This document shows, one piece after another, positions 5,065-62,925 of a stretch of 64,000 nt of DNA. The stretch spans positions 620,001 to 684,000 of the forward strand of contig NZ_CP147915.1 of NCBI RefSeq assembly GCF_039645585.1, written 5' to 3'. The position numbers and the translations under genes are program-made. This stretch comes from Sulfurimonas sp. HSL-1656 (GTDB taxonomy: Bacteria > Campylobacterota > Campylobacteria > Campylobacterales > Sulfurimonadaceae). Numbering within the stretch: position 1 is the first letter of the stretch; every line of letters begins with the position of its first letter. The notes below the pieces were generated by a model, which was not told where the DNA came from, did not search any database, and saw only the letters and a program-made list of their open reading frames with translations.

Positions 5065-5070
5065 TACAAT
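5065..5070 (+). promoter_or_regulatory. -10 box of a probable leaderless gene
   Basis: TACAAT followed by GGCGCTC and then ATG at 5078. The distance puts the expected transcription start on or next to the ATG, and no Shine-Dalgarno sequence is present. Confidence 0.5.
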
Positions 5071-5077
5071 GGCGCTC

Positions 5078-5227
5078 ATGAATGCAAAAACGAAACAGAT
5101 CATCAAAATTATCCTGCTGCTCGCAGGGTCGGGTTTCTTCCTTTTTCAGGGCTTTTCGCTGCTCTTTACCGAGCAGGAGGTGACGCCGGAGAAGGTCGAA
5201 GCCGTTATTGGGGGCAGCGCAGAGTAA
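5078..5227 (+). CDS. small single-pass membrane protein, unknown function
   Basis: A 49-residue protein starting MNAKTKQ with one strong membrane helix (about residues 8-30, IIKIILLLAGSGFFLF) and a short acidic tail. I do not recognise the family. ATG 5078 was chosen over ATG 5069 because the latter lies inside the -10 box TACAAT (5065-5070), and 5078 sits where transcription should begin. The last 23 bases overlap the 3' end of the agmatine deiminase gene on the other strand. The reading frame is short, so reality as a gene is likely but not certain. Confidence 0.5.
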   Translation: MNAKTKQIIKIILLLAGSGFFLFQGFSLLFTEQEVTPEKVEAVIGGSAE

Positions 5228-6251
5228 CGCAGGCGGGGAACTGCATCGTCACGCAGTGCAGCGAACCGTGCTGGCGGATCAGGATGCTGCAGTCGATGCC
5301 GATGATCTCCCGGCCGGGGAAGAGCGTTTTGAAAACGGCCAGCGCCTCGTCGTCATGGGGGTCGTTGTAGACCGGGACGAGGACGGCGCCGTTGATGATG
5401 AGGAAGTTGGCGTAGGTCGCCGGCAGCCGCTCGTCCTCGAAATAGATCGCATCGGTCATCGGCAGCGGGACGAGGGTGAAGGGTTCGCCGCGGTCGTTAC
5501 GGAGTTCCCGGAGCTCCTGTTCCATCTTTTGCAGGGCGTCGAAGTGCTCGTCGGCGGCATCCGTGCACCGGACGTAGCAGATGGTGTCGGCGTCGCAGAA
5601 GCGGGCGAGGGTGTCGATGTGGCTGTCGGTGTCGTCCCCGGCGAGGTAGCCGGAGGTCAGCCAGAGGGTCCGTTTGACCCCCAGGGTCTCGGCAAGGACG
5701 GCCTCGATCTCCGCACGGCCTGTCAACGCGCTGTTGCGGTTGGGGTTCAGGAGACACTCTTCGGTGACGAGCAGCAGCCCCTCCCCGTTGCTTTCGATCC
5801 CGCCCCCTTCGAGAATAAAACGGTGTGAAGCGACCGGTGCGCCGTAGTGCTGCGCGATCGCCGCGGTCATCGCACTGTCTTTGGCCGCTTCAAACTTGCC
5901 GCCCCAGCCGGTGAAAACAAAGTCCTGGATAAGGCATCCCTCTGTTGTCTCGACGGTAATGCCGCTGCAGTCCCGCGCCCAGGTGTCATCGGTGTCATAC
6001 TGTACGAAATGCAGGTTCGTCCCCGGAGCGACGTAGCGCTGCACCCGGGCGATGTCGTCACAGACGATCAGGCAGGGCTGGAAACGGGCGACGCCTTCGG
6101 CGATACGGGCAAAAGTTTGGCACGCTTCGTCGAGGTAGGGCGCCCAGTCACTGTCGGCGTGGGGAAAGATCAGCTGGACAAAGGATTGGGGTTCAAACTC
6201 CGCAGGGAGACGTTTTACGTGATAGGTTTGCATCTTCTCTTCAACATTCAA
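5205..6251 (-). CDS. aguA: agmatine deiminase / peptidyl-arginine deiminase family protein
   Basis: A 348-residue member of the PAD_porph family, converting agmatine to N-carbamoylputrescine in cytoplasmic polyamine synthesis. Visible family features are KRLPAEFEPQ near the N terminus, DDTWARDCSG, EGGGIESNGEG, DSHIDTLARF with the catalytic His, and the nucleophile Cys in HCVTMQFP near the C terminus. The start is uncertain: ATG 6251 fits a nearly leaderless transcript from the shared palindromic promoter, while ATG 6233 follows GAAGAGAAG and would begin MQTYHVKRLP. It is divergent from alr. No carbamoylputrescine amidase gene is nearby. Confidence 0.88.
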   Translation of the reverse strand: MNVEEKMQTYHVKRLPAEFEPQSFVQLIFPHADSDWAPYLDEACQTFARIAEGVARFQPCLIVCDDIARVQRYVAPGTNLHFVQYDTDDTWARDCSGITVETTEGCLIQDFVFTGWGGKFEAAKDSAMTAAIAQHYGAPVASHRFILEGGGIESNGEGLLLVTEECLLNPNRNSALTGRAEIEAVLAETLGVKRTLWLTSGYLAGDDTDSHIDTLARFCDADTICYVRCTDAADEHFDALQKMEQELRELRNDRGEPFTLVPLPMTDAIYFEDERLPATYANFLIINGAVLVPVYNDPHDDEALAVFKTLFPGREIIGIDCSILIRQHGSLHCVTMQFPACVTLRCPQ

Positions 6252-6256
6252 TTTAT

Positions 6257-6270
6257 GACATTATAATGTC
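6257..6270. promoter_or_regulatory. palindromic bidirectional -10 region between aguA and alr
   Basis: GACATTATAATGTC is a perfect 14-base palindrome. It places TATAAT on the plus strand at 6262-6267 (5 bases before the alr ATG) and TATAAT on the minus strand at 6265-6260 (8 bases before the longest aguA start). The two -10 boxes overlap, so polymerase can presumably load in only one direction at a time. Confidence 0.65.
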
Positions 6271-6272
6271 GT

Positions 6273-7292
6273 ATGGCTTTTATCACCCTAGACCGCAAAG
6301 CGTTCCACCACAACCTTAACATGATCTCGAAACAGCTGCAGAGCCGTGAGAAAATCGCACTCGTCCTCAAGGATAACGCCTACGGGCACGGCTTAAAGCA
6401 GGTCGCGCAGATCGCAAGCAAATACGGGATCGGGCGGGCCGTCGTCCGCACGATCGAAGAGGCGGAACAGGTCCGGGACAAATTCAACTATATTCTCGTT
6501 CTCGCGGATATGCCGGCGGTGCTGATGCCTGCTTACTGCTTTACCATCAACGCGATGGAGCAGATCAAGAGTTTTCCCCCCGGAAGCCGGGTGGAGCTCA
6601 AGGTCGATACGGGAATGCACCGAAACGGCGTCCCGCCGCACCTGCTGCACCACGCCTTTGAAAAGATCAGCAAGAACGGATTGAAACTCGAGGGGGTCTT
6701 TACCCACCACCGCAGCGCGGACGAGATGGGGAGCGAATATTTCTGGCAGCGCCACACCTTTGAAAGCGTTAGACGCGAAGCGCTGATGCTGGCCAAACGC
6801 TACGGCTTTCCGAGGCTCCGCTTCCACTCCGCGAACTCCGCCGCGACCTTTAGAAGCCATGAAGGGCACGATGACATGGTGCGCGTCGGTATCGCGGCGT
6901 ACGGCTGCCTGGAGATGCCGCAGGCTCTGCCGCAGCCGGACCTGCTTCCCATCCTCTCGCTCTGGGGCGAAAAGATCTCACAGCGGCGCCTGAACCAGGG
7001 CGAACGGGTCGGATACGGCGGGTGCTTCGGCGCCGACCGCCAGATGCAGATCAGCAATTACGATGTCGGGTATGCCGACGGGCTGCTGCGCACGGCATCG
7101 AACCGCTATACCGCGCCCGGCGGCGAGATGCTGCTGGGGCGCGTCTCCATGGATAACTGCAGTTTTGCCAGTGATGCGGAGCAGCTGCTCATCTTCGACG
7201 ATGCCCGCAGCTACGCGGCCGCGGCGGGGACCATCTCGTATGAAGTCCTGGTCGGGCTGAATCCCCGCCTGCCGCGCAAGATCATCGAATAG
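6273..7292 (+). CDS. alr: alanine racemase
   Basis: A 339-residue PLP enzyme interconverting L- and D-alanine for peptidoglycan. The PLP lysine is K33 in LVLKDNAYGHG. The catalytic tyrosine is in NYDVGYADGLLR (about residue 265), and GRVSMDNCSF is the usual C-terminal motif. Slightly short for the family (about 360) but complete. The ATG at 6273 has no Shine-Dalgarno sequence and lies 5 bases after TATAAT, so the mRNA is probably leaderless. Confidence 0.93.
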   Translation: MAFITLDRKAFHHNLNMISKQLQSREKIALVLKDNAYGHGLKQVAQIASKYGIGRAVVRTIEEAEQVRDKFNYILVLADMPAVLMPAYCFTINAMEQIKSFPPGSRVELKVDTGMHRNGVPPHLLHHAFEKISKNGLKLEGVFTHHRSADEMGSEYFWQRHTFESVRREALMLAKRYGFPRLRFHSANSAATFRSHEGHDDMVRVGIAAYGCLEMPQALPQPDLLPILSLWGEKISQRRLNQGERVGYGGCFGADRQMQISNYDVGYADGLLRTASNRYTAPGGEMLLGRVSMDNCSFASDAEQLLIFDDARSYAAAAGTISYEVLVGLNPRLPRKIIE

Positions 7293-14504: not shown

Positions 14505-14936
14505 ATGGAAAAGCGCAAAGTGGTCTGCCCCCACTGCGGGCAGGTCAATGCCGTCCCGGTCAAAGAGACCTATGCCAAGGCCAACTGCGGCCACTGCAGA
14601 CACTCCCTGCTCGATACGAAACCCATCGCCCTCGATCCAAGCGCCTTCGACAACCAGATCGCCAACAGCGACATTCCGGTCATCGTCGATTTCTGGGCAC
14701 CGTGGTGCGGCCCCTGCCGCATGATGGCCCCGGCGTTCGAGGAAGCGGCCTCCTCCTTCGTGCTGAAAGCCCGCTTCGCCAAGGTCAATACGGAAGAGCA
14801 GCAGGCACTGGCATCGCGCTTTCATATCCAGTCCATCCCGACGCTGATCGCCTTCAAAGGGGGGTGGGAAGTCGACCGGGTTTCCGGCGCCCTCAGCGCC
14901 GAGCAGCTCCGGCAGTGGGTCGGACGTTTTCTCTGA
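14505..14936 (+). CDS. trxC: thioredoxin 2 (zinc-ribbon thioredoxin)
   Basis: A 143-residue thioredoxin with an N-terminal zinc ribbon (CPHC at about 8-11 and CGHC at about 28-31) followed by a thioredoxin fold with active site FWAPWCGPCR. This is the TrxC layout, a cytosolic disulfide reductase associated with oxidative stress. It is co-transcribed with hpf (5-base gap). The stop codon TGA doubles as the TG element of the next gene's extended -10 promoter. Confidence 0.93.
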   Translation: MEKRKVVCPHCGQVNAVPVKETYAKANCGHCRHSLLDTKPIALDPSAFDNQIANSDIPVIVDFWAPWCGPCRMMAPAFEEAASSFVLKARFAKVNTEEQQALASRFHIQSIPTLIAFKGGWEVDRVSGALSAEQLRQWVGRFL

Positions 14937-14942
14937 TATAAT
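14934..14942 (+). promoter_or_regulatory. extended -10 promoter overlapping the trxC stop codon
   Basis: TGATATAAT: the TGA at 14934-14936 is the trxC stop and provides the TGn of an extended -10 whose TATAAT is 14937-14942. The next ATG (14951) is 8 bases downstream, so the leader is only a few bases or absent. Confidence 0.55.
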
Positions 14943-14950
14943 GCTGCCCC

Positions 14951-15592
14951 ATGAAACGGGGCATGACATTGAAATTACTTCTTCTACTTCTTTTTACCTT
15001 GACACTGGCAGCGGCAGACAATAATGTGACCGGCGATGAGCGTGAATGGTCCGTACGCGTCGGATACGGTTTTTCCGATGAGAGCGACCTGGGGGAGATC
15101 ATCTCCATGATGGGCGACCAGCACCCGGCGGGGACCTCGGCCGGCGGCGTCGAACTGGGCTACCGCTTTTCGCAGGAGACCTGGGGACTGCCCATTGATT
15201 TTTACCTCAAAGGTGGCGTAAACCGCTTCTTCGAGAACGGCCATCAGCCCGATTTTATGGAAATGACCATCTATATCAAGGCCTACTGGAACTTCCGGCC
15301 GTGGGAGCGGACGATCCGTCTGGGCTTCGGCGAAGGGGCCTCCTACGCCTGGGGTATCCCCTATGTCGAGAAGCTTGAGGCCCAGGCCGAGGGCGATCAC
15401 AACTCCCGCTTCCTCAACTACCTCGACGTCTCGCTCGATTTCGACCTGGGGCGTATGGTCGGCTACCGGCCGCTTTACGATACCTATGCCGGGTATGCCC
15501 TCAAGCACCGGTCGGGCATCTACGGCGCGATCAACGGCGTCCGCCGCGGCGGATCGAACTACAACCTTTGGTATGTCGAACACAACTTTTAG
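14951..15592 (+). CDS. outer-membrane beta-barrel protein, PagL/MipA-like in outline
   Basis: A 213-residue exported protein with a signal peptide (MTLKLLLLLLFTLTLAAA) and amphipathic beta strands ending in YNLWYVEHNF, as expected of a small outer-membrane barrel. Near the C terminus YALKHRSGIYG gives an H-x-S-G arrangement that loosely recalls the lipid A 3-O-deacylase PagL (His/Ser active site) but is not convincing alone. Other options are MipA- or OmpW-like barrels. ATG 14951 and ATG 14963 are both possible starts. The first is nearly leaderless from the TGATATAAT promoter. Confidence 0.6.
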   Translation: MKRGMTLKLLLLLLFTLTLAAADNNVTGDEREWSVRVGYGFSDESDLGEIISMMGDQHPAGTSAGGVELGYRFSQETWGLPIDFYLKGGVNRFFENGHQPDFMEMTIYIKAYWNFRPWERTIRLGFGEGASYAWGIPYVEKLEAQAEGDHNSRFLNYLDVSLDFDLGRMVGYRPLYDTYAGYALKHRSGIYGAINGVRRGGSNYNLWYVEHNF

Positions 15593-18537: not shown

Positions 18538-19326
18538 TCAGCCCGCGGCCAGAAGCAGCGGCTCCTCTTCGACCTGCTGCCGGTGGAAATGCAGCAGTTT
18601 CCACTCCCCCTCCATCGTCTCCACCACCGCCGTACACGATTCCACCCAGTCGCCGCAGTTGAGGTAGTGTATCCCGTCGATGTCACGGTTCTCCGCTTTG
18701 TGGATGTGCCCGCAGATCACCCCGTCGAATTCCCTCCGCTTCGCTTCGGATACGAGTACCTGTTCGTAATCGTCAATGAACATGACCGCTTTTTTGACGC
18801 TCTGCTTGGCGAAGTTTGAAAGGGACCAGAACCGTTTGTACCCGATCAGGCTCCGGATACGGTTGATGGGTTTGTTGAGCTTCAGCAGCATTTCATAGCT
18901 GATATCGCCGAACTTGGCCAGCCACTTTTTTGTCATCGTGATACTGTCGAAAAAGTCGCCGTGGGTGACGAGGTACTCCCGCCCGTCGGCCGCGGTAAAG
19001 TGGTGTTCGTTCGTCACTTCGATATTGTCGCCCAGGGTCAGGGGGAGAAAGGAGCGGACAAATTCGTCGTGGTTGCCGAGCACGTAGACGATCCTGGTTC
19101 CCTTGCGGGCACGGCGAAGCAGTTTCTGAATGACGTCGGAGTGCTCCTGCGGCCAGCTCCAGCGGCGGCGCAGCGCCCAGCCGTCAATGATGTCGCCGAC
19201 AAGAAAGAGGTGCTCGCATTCGAAATCGCGGAAAAATTCGAGCAGGGCGTCGGCCTGGGAGTGGCGGGACCCCAGGTGGATGTCGGAGAGAAAGACGGAA
19301 CGGTATCGCGTGGCGCTGTTATCCAT
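18538..19326 (-). CDS. LpxH-like metallophosphoesterase (UDP-2,3-diacylglucosamine diphosphatase family)
   Basis: A 262-residue calcineurin-like phosphoesterase. Metal motifs are LSDIHLGS (D-x-H), GDIIDGW, GNHDEF, VTHGDFFD and CGHIHKAE, in the usual order. It resembles the LpxH/LpxH2 group that removes UMP from UDP-diacylglucosamine in lipid A synthesis, but related proteins act on other substrates. ATG 19326 was chosen because the upstream ATG 19368 lies within the predicted -10 box (TATGGT, 19364-19369). It is divergent from a GT4 glycosyltransferase, which would suit a shared role in cell-envelope glycolipids. Confidence 0.82.
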   Translation of the reverse strand: MDNSATRYRSVFLSDIHLGSRHSQADALLEFFRDFECEHLFLVGDIIDGWALRRRWSWPQEHSDVIQKLLRRARKGTRIVYVLGNHDEFVRSFLPLTLGDNIEVTNEHHFTAADGREYLVTHGDFFDSITMTKKWLAKFGDISYEMLLKLNKPINRIRSLIGYKRFWSLSNFAKQSVKKAVMFIDDYEQVLVSEAKRREFDGVICGHIHKAENRDIDGIHYLNCGDWVESCTAVVETMEGEWKLLHFHRQQVEEEPLLLAAG

Positions 19327-19363
19327 TTGTGTCACTTTGGTTTGGTTTGTGAAACCATACTCC

Positions 19364-19371
19364 ACCATAAT
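19364..19371. promoter_or_regulatory. overlapping divergent -10 boxes (phosphoesterase / glycosyltransferase)
   Basis: ACCATAAT contains CATAAT on the plus strand (19366-19371, 6 bases before ATG 19378) and TATGGT on the minus strand (19369-19364). The offset between boxes equals that in the aguA/alr palindrome. Confidence 0.45.
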
Positions 19372-19377
19372 TGCGAA

Positions 19378-20529
19378 ATGGATACAAAGGTATTACTGAT
19401 CAGCGACACGGTTTACGACGCCAACGGGGTGTCGCGTTTCATTCAGGATATGGCGGCACAGTCGCGCCAGAGGGACGGCCGCTTTTCCGTATTGAGCTCG
19501 TCCCCGTTGGGCGGGCAGTCGACCGAGAACAATATCGTCAACATTCGGCCCTTCTGGTATGTCCGGATGCCTTTTTACAAAGAGCAGTACCTCACGATCG
19601 TACCGCCTTGGATGCAGATGTACCGCTACGTCAAAGCGGCATCCCCGGACGTCATCCATATCTCGACACCGGGGCCGCTGGGGATCTGTGCCATGCTTAT
19701 CGCGAAGCGGTGCGGTATCCCCGTGGCGGGGACCTACCATACGGATTTTCCCTCCTATATCCGTAAACAGATGAAGCTGGAACTGGCCGAAGCGGTGACG
19801 CGGAGGTTCATGCGTTTCTTTTTTCAGCGCATGCAGCGGGTCTTCTCCAGGTCGCAGCACTACATGACGGTGTTGGAAGATGAACTGAATATGGAAGCGC
19901 GGAAATTGCGATTCCTGCCGCCGGGGAGCAACACGGAGCGTTTTTCGCTCCTGCACCGGGATGCATCGGTCTGGCCCCGTTTCGACATCCGCTCCGACAG
20001 CCTGAAGATCCTCTACGTCGGGCGGCTCAGCGTCGAGAAGAACTTCCTCTTCGTTGTCGATCTCTTCGAAGCGCTTCAGCAGCGTTGCGACGTGCCGCTC
20101 TCCCTGATCGTCGTCGGGGAGGGGACCCTGGCCGAGAGCGTGAGCCGGCGGCGCAACAGCCATATCCATCTGCTGGGCCTGCAGGGCGGCCCGGACCTCT
20201 CCGCGCTCTATGCCTCGTCGGACCTGATGCTCTTCGCCTCCGTCACCGAAACGCTGGGGCAGGTCGTGATGGAGGCCCAGGCTTCCGGACTTCCCTGCAT
20301 CGTCAGCGACCAGGGAGGCGTGACCGATACCGTTGAACACGGTAAAACAGGCTACTGCCTCTCTGTGGCAGATATGTCCGCATGGACGGACGCTGCATTG
20401 AAGCTTATTGCCGACAAAGGGCTCCGCGAACGTATGGGCAGTGCGGCACATGGAAGGATGCAGGGGCGTTCGATCGTGCAGACCTATGAGCGCTTTATGC
20501 AGGCGCATGATGAGATCGTTAAGAGTTAA
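19378..20529 (+). CDS. GT4-family glycosyltransferase (GT-B fold)
   Basis: A 383-residue glycosyltransferase. The N-terminal half opens LLISDTVYDANGVSRF and has the GTYHTDFPSY motif typical of GT4 enzymes acting on lipids. The C-terminal half has ILYVGRLSVEKNF and the nucleotide-sugar motif ETLGQVVMEAQASGLP (E-x7-E). Many relatives are alpha-mannosyl- or glucosyltransferases making glycolipids. The exact sugar is unknown. ATG 19378 sits 6 bases after a -10 box without a ribosome site, so it is probably leaderless. The final codons and stop lie inside the GTTAAGA repeat array. Confidence 0.85.
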   Translation: MDTKVLLISDTVYDANGVSRFIQDMAAQSRQRDGRFSVLSSSPLGGQSTENNIVNIRPFWYVRMPFYKEQYLTIVPPWMQMYRYVKAASPDVIHISTPGPLGICAMLIAKRCGIPVAGTYHTDFPSYIRKQMKLELAEAVTRRFMRFFFQRMQRVFSRSQHYMTVLEDELNMEARKLRFLPPGSNTERFSLLHRDASVWPRFDIRSDSLKILYVGRLSVEKNFLFVVDLFEALQQRCDVPLSLIVVGEGTLAESVSRRRNSHIHLLGLQGGPDLSALYASSDLMLFASVTETLGQVVMEAQASGLPCIVSDQGGVTDTVEHGKTGYCLSVADMSAWTDAALKLIADKGLRERMGSAAHGRMQGRSIVQTYERFMQAHDEIVKS

Positions 20530-23893: not shown

Positions 23894-24241
23894 ATGAACA
23901 TCCCGTTTCGTCGCATTACGGCCGACCCTCATCCCTTCGTTCTGGAGAAGAACGGCATGCGGATCGAGGGGACGCTTCGCAAGTATCGCAGCGGTCTTGT
24001 ACTGCTCGAAGCGACGATGCAGGGGAGTCTTGACGTAGATTGCTATCTCTGCGGCGATTCCTTTGCTATAATGCCGGATGAAAAAGTCGAATTTCTGATT
24101 TCTGACGGTGTTTTTCATGGTCAGGATGAGACATATGATGTTGTCGAGATGCATGGCGATGCCATCGATCTTGACGAAGTGTTCGATTCGGAAATCGCTT
24201 CGATCGAAAGCGATTACCATGCCTGCCCCAAATGCAGGTAA
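23894..24241 (+). CDS. DUF177/YceD family protein
   Basis: A 115-residue protein with CYLCGDSF and a C-terminal HACPKCR. Its position just before rpmF, plsX and fabH is the conserved place of DUF177 (YceD), a protein tied to 23S rRNA accumulation in some bacteria. The Cys pairs may bind zinc. The gap to ndk is 5 bases and to rpmF is 21. Confidence 0.82.
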   Translation: MNIPFRRITADPHPFVLEKNGMRIEGTLRKYRSGLVLLEATMQGSLDVDCYLCGDSFAIMPDEKVEFLISDGVFHGQDETYDVVEMHGDAIDLDEVFDSEIASIESDYHACPKCR

Positions 24242-40936: not shown

Positions 40937-40984
40937 ATTCACCTTTGTCATGCTTTTCCGTGATAAAATAAACAGCCTGTCCGT

Positions 40985-40990
40985 TATAAT
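40985..40990 (+). promoter_or_regulatory. -10 box of the leaderless GGDEF-EAL gene
   Basis: TATAAT then GGTGCT then ATG 40997. The predicted transcription start is the A of the ATG. No Shine-Dalgarno sequence is present. Confidence 0.6.
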
Positions 40991-40996
40991 GGTGCT

Positions 40997-43399
40997 ATGA
41001 GCACTCAGAACAAACTTCTCTTATTTTTTATCATGCTGCTGATTCTCTTTTTCAGTGTCAGCGAGACGTGGATGCTCTTCTACGGCCTGAAAAAAACCAA
41101 AGAGGAGTGGCACGCCCAAAACGGCATTAATGTCAACACGATCCTTGACCTGCAGAAGCAGGGGGTCGCCGTCGTGGCGCTCGCACTGGCGAACAACCCG
41201 ACAGTGAAGGCTGCCTACCGCGAGAACAATCCCCAGATGATCATCGATGCCGTGCTGCCTTTTTGGAAGCAGGTACATACGCAGGATATGATTTACGAGA
41301 TCCACTTCTTCAAGCCGCCCGCGATCTCCTTTGTCAATTTTTCAAATGTCGGTTCTATCGGTACCAATGTCAGTCGCGTCAGACGGGACATGGTCTGGGT
41401 GACCTCTTCTTTCAAAGCAAGCAGTCACCTGATGATGTGCAAAACCTATGCAGGGGTCAGGGCGACTTATCCCATCGTTGATGCGAACGGTACGATGCTC
41501 GGCGGCCTCTCCCTTGGGAAAAAAGTCGGATGGATTCCTGCGACACTAAAAGACACTTCTTCGAAAGAGGCGTTTCTGGTCTATACGAAAGCGCCGACAC
41601 AGAACCTCTCGGAGCACTATTACCAGCAGTTCATGGAGGGCAAAGAGGCACTCGGCGACTATATTTTCGCGCAGCGGACCCTGCCCATCAGCAAAGCAGA
41701 GTTTTCCGGGATCGACTTTTCCAAACCGCAGCAGTCGTTTGAAACCGGGGGGCGGGAGTATGAGCTTGACCTCTACCCCCTGTATGATTTCAACCATGAC
41801 GTTATGGCGTATATCGGTGTCCTCAACAGTCTGGATGCCTTCAGTACACGGCTTTGGACGAGGCTGTTGACCAATCTTCTGCTGGTGGGGAGTACGTTCG
41901 CCGTGCTTTTCCTTCTTTTCAGAAAGCGTGTCAGGAAAACCTTTGCGCTGATATCCCAGATGAAAACGTTGACACAGCACTTTAAAAACAATCGGTTCGA
42001 CCCTTTGAAAGGCTATGACCTGGAGAGGCTGGAAGCACAGAAGGGGCAGGACGAGATCCGCGGCCTGCAGCTCGATATCTTGCAGATGGGCCGGGCGCTG
42101 CAGTCATACCACGATGAGATGCAGAGCACGGTCGAAGAGAAGACGGCGGCTCTTTCCCGGGCCAACCGTGAACTGGAACACCGGCTTTATTCCGACCATC
42201 TGACCGGCCTGCCCAATCGGAATGCCCTGTTCCGGGACGCACCGCACTGGCCTTCCCCCGCCGTGGCGACGATCGATATCAACGGGTTCAAAACGATCAA
42301 CGATCTCTACGGGGTTGAGCTCGGGAACCGGCTGCTGAAAGAACTGGGGAGTTTCTGTCAGGCATTTTTGGCAGACGAGCCGATCACTGTATACCGTATC
42401 AGTGCGGATGAATTCGTATTGGCCGCCGCGGAAGGGTATGAGGAGGCAGCATTTACCGGCCTGGTCGTCCGCTTGATCGCTGCCGCGGAGAAACACCGCT
42501 TTATCGTCGAAAACGCGGACCTGGAACTCTATATCGAACTCGTGGCCGGTATTGCCTTCGGACACGGCAAACTGATCGAAAAAGCGGACATGGCACTCGT
42601 TTACGCCAAGAAAACACGGCGGGATTACGTGGTCTATACGGATGCGCTGGGCCTTGACCGTGCACATGAGGAGAGTATCGCACTGATGCGGCGCCTGAAA
42701 CAGGCGGTCGAAGGCGGGCATATCACGGTGGTATATCAGCCAATCGTCGACCGTGAGGGTACGGTGAAGAAGTATGAATCACTGCTGCGCATCCGTGAAG
42801 GCGATACGCTTCTGTCGCCCCATTCGTTTCTGGCATTCGCAAAAAAGACGCGCTATTACAAACTGATGACCCGGGCCGTGGTGGACAAGACGTTTGCGTA
42901 CTTTGCCGGTACATCGATGCAGTTTACGATCAATCTGACGGCACAGGATATTCTCGACAGCGATACCGTGGCTTATCTCTATGGCAAGCTGGAGCAGAGC
43001 GGTCTTGCCCGCAACGTCGTTTTTGAGATTGTTGAGTCTGAGAGCCTGCAGGGGATGGACGCATTCGAGACTTTTGTCGAAGCGGTCAAAAACCGCGGAG
43101 CCAAAGTGGCTATTGATGATTTTGGATCGGGGTATTCGAACTTCTCCTATCTCTTGAAACTTGCACCGGACTACCTGAAAATAGACGGATCGCTGATCAA
43201 AGAGATCCACACCGATGCGAATGCCTACGCCATCGTCCAGACGATTGTCGGCTTTGCCAAAACGCTCGGGATACGGACCATTGCCGAGTATATCCACTCA
43301 GAGGCTGTCTTTGACGTGTGCAAGACGCTCGGTATCGATGAGTTCCAGGGGTACTATTTCGGTGCGCCGGAAAAAGAGATCCCGGACGTTGAAACGTAG
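40997..43399 (+). CDS. Cache-GGDEF-EAL membrane signalling protein
   Basis: An 800-residue protein with a membrane helix (about 8-28), a Cache-type periplasmic sensor (about 35-280), a second helix (about 288-308), a HAMP-like linker, a GGDEF domain (about 395-535) and an EAL domain (about 560-795). The cyclase motif reads RISADEF instead of RxGGDEF, so the active site is degenerate and may only bind GTP. The EAL domain keeps the key residues (YESLLR, NLTAQD, FEIVESE, IDDFGSGYSN, KIDGSLI, AEYIHSE), so it is likely a c-di-GMP phosphodiesterase. The ligand of the Cache domain is unknown. Predicted leaderless. Confidence 0.88.
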   Translation: MSTQNKLLLFFIMLLILFFSVSETWMLFYGLKKTKEEWHAQNGINVNTILDLQKQGVAVVALALANNPTVKAAYRENNPQMIIDAVLPFWKQVHTQDMIYEIHFFKPPAISFVNFSNVGSIGTNVSRVRRDMVWVTSSFKASSHLMMCKTYAGVRATYPIVDANGTMLGGLSLGKKVGWIPATLKDTSSKEAFLVYTKAPTQNLSEHYYQQFMEGKEALGDYIFAQRTLPISKAEFSGIDFSKPQQSFETGGREYELDLYPLYDFNHDVMAYIGVLNSLDAFSTRLWTRLLTNLLLVGSTFAVLFLLFRKRVRKTFALISQMKTLTQHFKNNRFDPLKGYDLERLEAQKGQDEIRGLQLDILQMGRALQSYHDEMQSTVEEKTAALSRANRELEHRLYSDHLTGLPNRNALFRDAPHWPSPAVATIDINGFKTINDLYGVELGNRLLKELGSFCQAFLADEPITVYRISADEFVLAAAEGYEEAAFTGLVVRLIAAAEKHRFIVENADLELYIELVAGIAFGHGKLIEKADMALVYAKKTRRDYVVYTDALGLDRAHEESIALMRRLKQAVEGGHITVVYQPIVDREGTVKKYESLLRIREGDTLLSPHSFLAFAKKTRYYKLMTRAVVDKTFAYFAGTSMQFTINLTAQDILDSDTVAYLYGKLEQSGLARNVVFEIVESESLQGMDAFETFVEAVKNRGAKVAIDDFGSGYSNFSYLLKLAPDYLKIDGSLIKEIHTDANAYAIVQTIVGFAKTLGIRTIAEYIHSEAVFDVCKTLGIDEFQGYYFGAPEKEIPDVET

Positions 43400-62293: not shown

Positions 62294-62925
62294 TAGTAAG
62301 TGATCCCCCATACTGATGAGTTGACATCGAGTTCCAGTTTTTCTTTGGCACTCAGGCTGAGACCGTGCAGGTCGATAACCAGATCACTCTGTTCCATGGC
62401 GTTGATGAATTTGAGCATGTTGTCGAACTCACCTGACGCAAAGACTTTGATGTCAAGTACGTGACCAAACTTCTCTTTTTCCAGAGCCCTTTTATTGCTC
62501 AAGACAGCGAGCTTGACGCTGTATTTCTTGGCATTTTCTGCGATCGAGTCAATATATTTACCCCAGGCTTCTTCATTATAGAAGAGTTCAGAGATCTGAC
62601 TGATCTTGTAGTTGATATATTCGTTTTTCTCTTTGACAGCCAATGTTTCCGCTTTAATGGCTTCAATTTGGGCTTCAATCTGATGAATTTCGCTTTCTGG
62701 ATGCATTGCGAGATAATGCTCATCTGCTCTGAGCTTTTGTTCGACGGCAATCCGTTCTGCCTTCACCTGCTGATATTCGCGCTCAGCACTTTCCCAAAAT
62801 AAGAGGTAGGAGAAAGCTATAAGCGCTACGGCGATCATGCCGTATATCATATAGACCTCACCCTGTTTCTTACTAGAAAAAGACTGGTCTATTGGATAGA
62901 GGTATTGTTCAATATTAAATTTCAT
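62293..62925 (-). CDS. MshJ/PilO-like inner membrane protein
   Basis: A 210-residue protein with a single membrane helix (about 26-45) and a long coiled-coil stretch (about 46-110; QVKAERIAVEQKL, EAQIEAIKAETLAVKEK) followed by a PilO-like alpha/beta domain ending VNSSVWGITY. This is the PilO/MshJ layout, part of the inner-membrane alignment complex. It overlaps the MshI-like gene by 4 bases. Confidence 0.78.
   Translation of the reverse strand: MKFNIEQYLYPIDQSFSSKKQGEVYMIYGMIAVALIAFSYLLFWESAEREYQQVKAERIAVEQKLRADEHYLAMHPESEIHQIEAQIEAIKAETLAVKEKNEYINYKISQISELFYNEEAWGKYIDSIAENAKKYSVKLAVLSNKRALEKEKFGHVLDIKVFASGEFDNMLKFINAMEQSDLVIDLHGLSLSAKEKLELDVNSSVWGITY

Follow-up and report, generated by a model that had tools for sequence, protein, structure and literature searches.

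At position 40997 of a stretch of 64,000 nucleotides from the chromosome of Sulfurimonas sp. HSL-1656 (hereafter the window), an ATG follows a TATAAT box at a distance of only six bases, which raises the question of whether transcription and translation of this gene would begin at the same place, and of how many other genes share the arrangement. The genome is a single contig of 2,556,179 bases, of which the window covers positions 620001–684000, and the GC content of the window is 55.5%. The original prediction had listed five ATGs in the window that follow a −10 box by 5–8 bases in the absence of a Shine–Dalgarno (SD) sequence, and reading the sequence at all five confirmed this. The boxes are TATAAT, TACAAT or CATAAT and lie 11–14 bases from the start, and no SD core (AGGA, GGAG, GAGG or AAGG) is present between box and ATG at 5078, 6273, 14951, 19378 or 40997. 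The features are as follows.

5065–5070, plus strand: −10 box TACAAT, followed by the spacer GGCGCTC (7 bases) and ATG 5078; box kept at four loci (L083, L091, L095 and L099).
5078–5227, plus strand: leaderless-type open reading frame of 49 amino acids with a hydrophobic stretch; protein 88–100% identical in four loci of relatives.
6262–6267, plus strand: −10 box TATAAT of alr, spacer of 5 bases, inside the palindrome GACATTATAATGTC (6257–6270).
6273–7292, plus strand: leaderless-type alanine racemase gene alr, 339 amino acids (Pfam); 22 of 38 loci leaderless-type.
14937–14942, plus strand: −10 box TATAAT, spacer of 8 bases, ATG 14951; directly abuts the TGA (14934–14936) of a thioredoxin gene (identified by Pfam) upstream.
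14951–15592, plus strand: leaderless-type gene for an OMP_b-brl-like protein of 213 amino acids (Pfam match below cut-off).
19366–19371, plus strand: −10 box CATAAT, followed by the spacer TGCGAA (6 bases) and ATG 19378; conserved in L091, L095 and L099.
19378–20529, plus strand: leaderless-type glycosyltransferase gene, 383 amino acids (glycosyltransferase domains found by Pfam on a longer frame from 18961).
40964–40969, plus strand: second −10-like box, TAAAAT, whose use would produce an SD-less leader of about 20 nt; absent from this place in the orthologous locus L104.
40985–40990, plus strand: −10 box TATAAT, followed by the spacer GGTGCT (6 bases) and ATG 40997.
40997–43399, plus strand: leaderless-type gene with dCache_3, GGDEF and EAL domains (Pfam), 800 amino acids; 6 of 9 evaluable loci leaderless-type, including its own.

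For four of the sites (5078, 6273, 14951 and 19378), box, spacing and ATG are all kept in three relatives of the same genus (G004, G005 and G007), and for many of the orthologous proteins the alignment begins at the predicted start codon. The box and spacer of alr are identical in six near relatives (L083 and L085–L089); its closest named match, 96% identical, comes from the metagenome-assembled genome Campylobacterales bacterium AP10.010. Each site also has features of its own. The 49-amino-acid protein (5078–5227) is conserved in the genus, and an in-frame ATG nine bases upstream of its start overlaps its own −10 box. The sequence GACATTATAATGTC around the alr box is a perfect palindrome that may also fire a divergent gene of the peptidyl-arginine-deiminase family (5205–6233, minus strand), and could thus give one leaderless (alr) and one leadered transcript. 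Only 14 bases separate the thioredoxin stop codon from ATG 14951, and these accommodate both promoter box and spacer. The CATAAT at 19366–19371 overlaps the listed ATG of a divergent metallophosphatase frame (18538–19368, minus strand), whose true start may be further inside. No tRNA was found within the window by ARAGORN, and no Rfam family matched there at gathering scores.

The site at 40997 had been put forward as the clearest case and as encoding a c-di-GMP enzyme. The predicted product indeed carries EAL and GGDEF domains well above the Pfam cut-offs (PF00563, 196.2 bits against 31.3; PF00990, 57.3 bits against 23.8). Inspection of the translation by eye, against the usual motifs, revealed ESLLR, DDFGSG and KIDG, with SADEF in place of GGDEF. 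Since the EAL motifs are kept and GGDEF is degenerate, the protein is more probably a phosphodiesterase whose cyclase domain is inactive than a cyclase. The string TATAAT-GGTGCT-ATG is exactly as described, and the 15-base TATAATGGTGCTATG at this start occurs once in the genome, which rules out a repeat. Two points count against calling it the clearest case: the second box TAAAAT, and that no close orthologue turned up in the searched genomes of the genus. What supports the site is orthologues from other genera, several of which retain the box: L104 (52% identity) keeps TATAAT with an 8-base spacer and has no TAAAAT there, and four more (L105, L106, L110 and L111) show a box at the spacing of leaderless starts. 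L108 fits only if its start is an ATG nine bases upstream, L107, L109 and L113 appear SD-led, and the start of L112 was not reached.

Globally, the arrangement is in clear excess. TATAAT-N4-9-ATG occurs 110 times in the genome compared with 33 times for the reversed pattern, and among the 100 matches listed, spacers of 4, 5, 6, 7, 8 and 9 bases account for 5, 10, 39, 20, 16 and 10, respectively. Gene starts were studied in 464 kb of sequence (18% of the genome), made up of the window and 20 sampled stretches of 20 kb each. The GC content was 54–61% in 18 of the 20 stretches, and 43% and 49% in the remaining two; the one at 43% (L040, genome positions 1110001–1130000) may be a foreign island. 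A purpose-built, simple gene finder, which sets starts by coding potential and start codon only and ignores upstream motifs, called 390 genes covering 81% of the sample, with some genes missed. Counting as −10-like any TATAAT with at most one change in which the second A and the last T are retained, we observed boxes beginning 11, 12 and 13 bases ahead of 2, 11 and 5 of the 382 called starts, respectively, and about one per position at 14–20 bases. A second, broad population of boxes was present 32–38 bases before these starts. The 18 starts with a box at 11–13 bases compare with 3.0 expected from positions 14–20 (P = 4e-9) or 6.2 expected from positions 41–59 (P = 8e-5), the less favourable background making the excess about threefold rather than sixfold. 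With the window removed, 15 of 328 starts remained, against 3.0 or 4.3 expected (P = 7e-7 or 4e-5).

When nearby alternative ATGs were allowed, 25 of the 390 genes fitted at 11–13 bases (26 at 11–14), and the same procedure at five decoy spacings gave 3, 5, 6, 6 and 3 genes. Corrected for the decoys, about 20 of 390 called genes (∼5%, or roughly one in twenty) look leaderless, which by area would correspond to about 110 in the genome. By a crude rule, 195 of 367 genes with an evaluable neighbour are the first of their transcription unit, so the leaderless share of units may approach, very roughly, 10%. Leaderless translation had been expected to be common in this chromosome; the class appears to be real, but at these modest shares the word calls for qualification.

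Not all of these genes need be read only from their own box. Some of the ATGs, for example 14951, could mainly be read from polycistronic mRNA, with the box serving as a secondary promoter. This is a proposal about single sites and is compatible with the leaderless reading of the class; we consider it unlikely. ATG 14951 lies just 14 nt past the thioredoxin stop codon, and 9 of the 26 sampled leaderless-type genes are at most 60 nt behind a gene on the same strand and hence not first in their unit by the crude rule, so transcription from a promoter further upstream may also reach some of them. However, ATG 14951 lacks an SD core from which internal initiation could proceed, and three relatives conserve its box; nor does the proposal suit 5078, 6273 and 19378, each of which has its upstream neighbour on the opposite strand.

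The sequence between box and start has a character of its own. ATG is preferred as the start codon: TATAAT-N5-7 precedes ATG 75 times (16 reversed) and GTG or TTG 43 times (26 reversed), the latter also a weak excess (Fisher's P = 0.006 for the preference). Transcription usually starts at a purine preceded by a pyrimidine, and the base before the ATG is C or T in 33 of the 39 matches listed at spacer length 6, compared with 96 of 179 SD-led ATG starts (P = 0.0003). The same tendency was weak in the sampled leaderless-type genes (20 of 26, P = 0.03). Their spacers are also poorer in A than the sequence behind the boxes of leadered genes, both at the fourth base after the box (8% versus 33%) and at the sixth (15% versus 41%; 26 versus 64 sequences).

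SD-led initiation is present alongside. An SD core (here including TAAG) was detected at 210 of 382 called starts, leaving 172 without one in the tested stretch, and GGATCACCTCCTT, the usual 3′-end sequence of 16S rRNA, which holds the anti-SD, occurs three times in the genome, presumably within 16S genes. Together, these two observations support the expectation that two initiation modes coexist.

To what extent the arrangement recurs in the phylum was read from orthologous starts, at the best-matching loci only. For alr, these were 38 loci (the best 30 of 76 matched genomes, two others, and six more from further searches); for the EAL gene at 40997, 11 loci out of 43 matched genomes, after exclusion of a twelfth that was 22% identical; and for two genes from the sample, NFACT and a small gene with an S4 domain, the best 30 of 77 and of 115, respectively. 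The SD-led control trpS, chosen for its −10 box about 30 bases upstream in this genome, was read at the best 30 of 77. The leaderless arrangement was present at 22 of 38 loci for alr, 6 of 9 evaluable for the EAL gene, 12 of 29 evaluable for NFACT, 4 of 30 for S4 and 0 of 29 evaluable for trpS. These counts include the genome itself, in which all but trpS had been picked as leaderless-type; excluding it gives 21 of 37, 5 of 8, 11 of 28, 3 of 29 and 0 of 28. Of the alr loci, eight come from the genus or are near-identical (L083 and L086 possibly representing one organism), and 14 of the 30 others fit. Internal in-frame ATGs rarely fitted (alr 1 of 271, EAL 2 of 110, NFACT 3 of 147, S4 0 of 34, trpS 0 of 223). 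On their counts, S4 and NFACT were dropped as phylum-wide examples. Of the remaining orthologues, some had an SD core, others began with GTG or TTG, and others showed neither of these signals.

Across the phylum, TATAAT-N5-7-ATG exceeded its reversed control in 135 of 150 genomes. The excess is not universal, as exemplified by one family of seven genomes (f9; 1626 versus 1593 reversed, ratio 1.02). Only one of the 150 has a higher ratio than this genome (4.7), which ranks 22nd by excess; AT-rich genomes have a high background, so that these ratios are not comparable across GC contents.

Taken together, the fixed spacing, the preference for ATG, the pyrimidine before it, the recurrence in relatives and the clean controls make leaderless initiation the best reading, and we put the probability that the five sites represent a minority class of leaderless genes beside SD-led genes at roughly 0.87. 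At an individual site whose box is weaker, for instance CATAAT before 19378, the prediction could nevertheless prove wrong. The housekeeping RNA polymerase, most likely with sigma-70, would recognize a −10 box that ends about six bases before the ATG, and judging from geometry and conservation, transcription would begin on the A of the ATG or within one or two bases of it. The resulting mRNA would have neither leader nor SD, and the ribosome would have to start on a 5′-terminal AUG. Such AUGs are typically loaded by the intact 70S ribosome. At many other genes, the box about 32–38 bases upstream would give leaders of roughly 20–25 nt.

Alternatively, the genes might be leadered and simply lack an SD, with transcription starting upstream (at 40997, from TAAAAT), the close box being incidental and ribosomes beginning without SD. 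There is a candidate for such a promoter in the −10-like box at 40964–40969, and starts without an SD core are not rare by our crude test (172 of 382). Incidental boxes, however, would not cluster at 11–13 bases, nor would they recur before the ATG in orthologues that are only ∼40–55% identical, and we regard this reading as very unlikely. Hardest of all to credit is that the sites are random matches selected by eye from a single window: an exact TATAAT-N5-ATG does occur at 24067–24080, where no gene starts, and a relaxed pattern (one box change, no SD filter) precedes 12 ATGs, on the two strands of the window together, whose frames run for 30 codons or more, namely the five named and seven others, but the genome-wide excess, the decoy spacings and the recurrence in relatives all argue against it. 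The match at 24067 itself leads into a frame of just 6 codons and appears fortuitous; the ATG at 62838 (minus strand), from the relaxed set, is also among the 26 sampled genes.

Of the 26 sampled genes, 24 were scanned for protein families, four of them being the window genes described above. The other 20 include RecR, RadC, RNase HII, an rRNA adenine dimethylase (RrnaAD), NFACT and S4; CorA, a P-type ATPase, a Na/H exchanger, a radical SAM protein, an acyltransferase and an amidoligase; and nitroreductase, ABC transporter, molybdopterin-binding and cytochrome domains, with four genes lacking a family. Three of the 20 are thus of DNA repair or RNase H type and three are ribosome-related, which we treat as a lead only. 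The small S4-domain gene (L039:13046–13294) and the NFACT gene (L033:8632–9978) are both leaderless-type in this genome; they appear to resemble the ribosome-rescue factors RqcP and RqcH, respectively.

Leaderless mRNAs are known from the same phylum. In Campylobacter jejuni, dRNA-seq identified 19 of 471 5′ UTRs shorter than 10 nt, 12 of which begin on the first base of the start codon, and the main text describes the leaderless cases as all starting with ATG, with a TAnAaT box and no ribosome binding site (PMC3847290, 2013). Our candidates share the box type, the ATG and the missing ribosome binding site; start sites were measured in that study, whereas here they are predicted from sequence, in a GC-richer genome. 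The same text reports a search for this build upstream of 23 genes in 42 genomes of Epsilonproteobacteria, Sulfurimonas included, in which orthologues alternated between leaderless and leadered and one gene (cj1247c/hp0820, upstream of uvrC) was predicted leaderless in all species. The mixture of signals at our non-leaderless orthologues likewise indicates that genes switch state, as described there for its own gene set. We rejected the idea that the small S4 gene is cj1247c/hp0820, since its next gene is a glycosyl transferase of family 3, not uvrC. The main text of PMC3847290 makes no mention of 'alanine racemase' or of the presumed C. jejuni gene tag for it, and a literature search combining leaderless, alanine racemase and promoter returned no title on this phylum.

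Predictions of this kind sometimes fail: according to PMC11955535, ribosome profiling supports six of about 20 predicted C. jejuni leaderless cases, with one leadered and 14 unclear. Zheng et al. (2011; PMC3160421) list leaderless genes in 2 of 26 epsilon-proteobacterial genomes, at an average of 2.9%. Their TA-led genes resemble ours in having a TANNNT-type signal about 12 bp before the start and in being read as leaderless; our ∼5% and their 2.9% come from different methods and are not strictly comparable. In Deinococcus-Thermus, PMC12340547 describes leaderless expression from a −10 region likewise adjacent to the open reading frame as an important expression mode, whereas here it would serve a small minority beside SD-led genes. 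As far as sequence evidence goes, this genome is thus a further well-supported instance of a mechanism and phenomenon already published for the phylum.

A more speculative extension, which we hold to be possible rather than probable, is that the leaderless state is a maintained, switchable regulatory character in the phylum and not noise. The alr, dCache-GGDEF-EAL, NFACT and S4 genes would then shift between a box at about 12 and one at about 30–35 bases, and an A-poor spacer ending in a pyrimidine would leave the A of the ATG as the favoured start point. If so, leaderless genes for ribosome rescue and DNA repair (in the sample, RqcH-like NFACT, RqcP-like S4, RecR, RadC and RNase HII) could be translated under conditions of impaired normal initiation. 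Independently of this extension, the analysis provides a set of candidate leaderless genes, among them the gene for a c-di-GMP enzyme and alr, whose leaderless arrangement is met again in different families. It does so in a GC-rich member of the phylum, where the low background of TATAAT makes the signature unusually clear, and where start-codon prediction that relies on SD sequences may misplace about one start in twenty.
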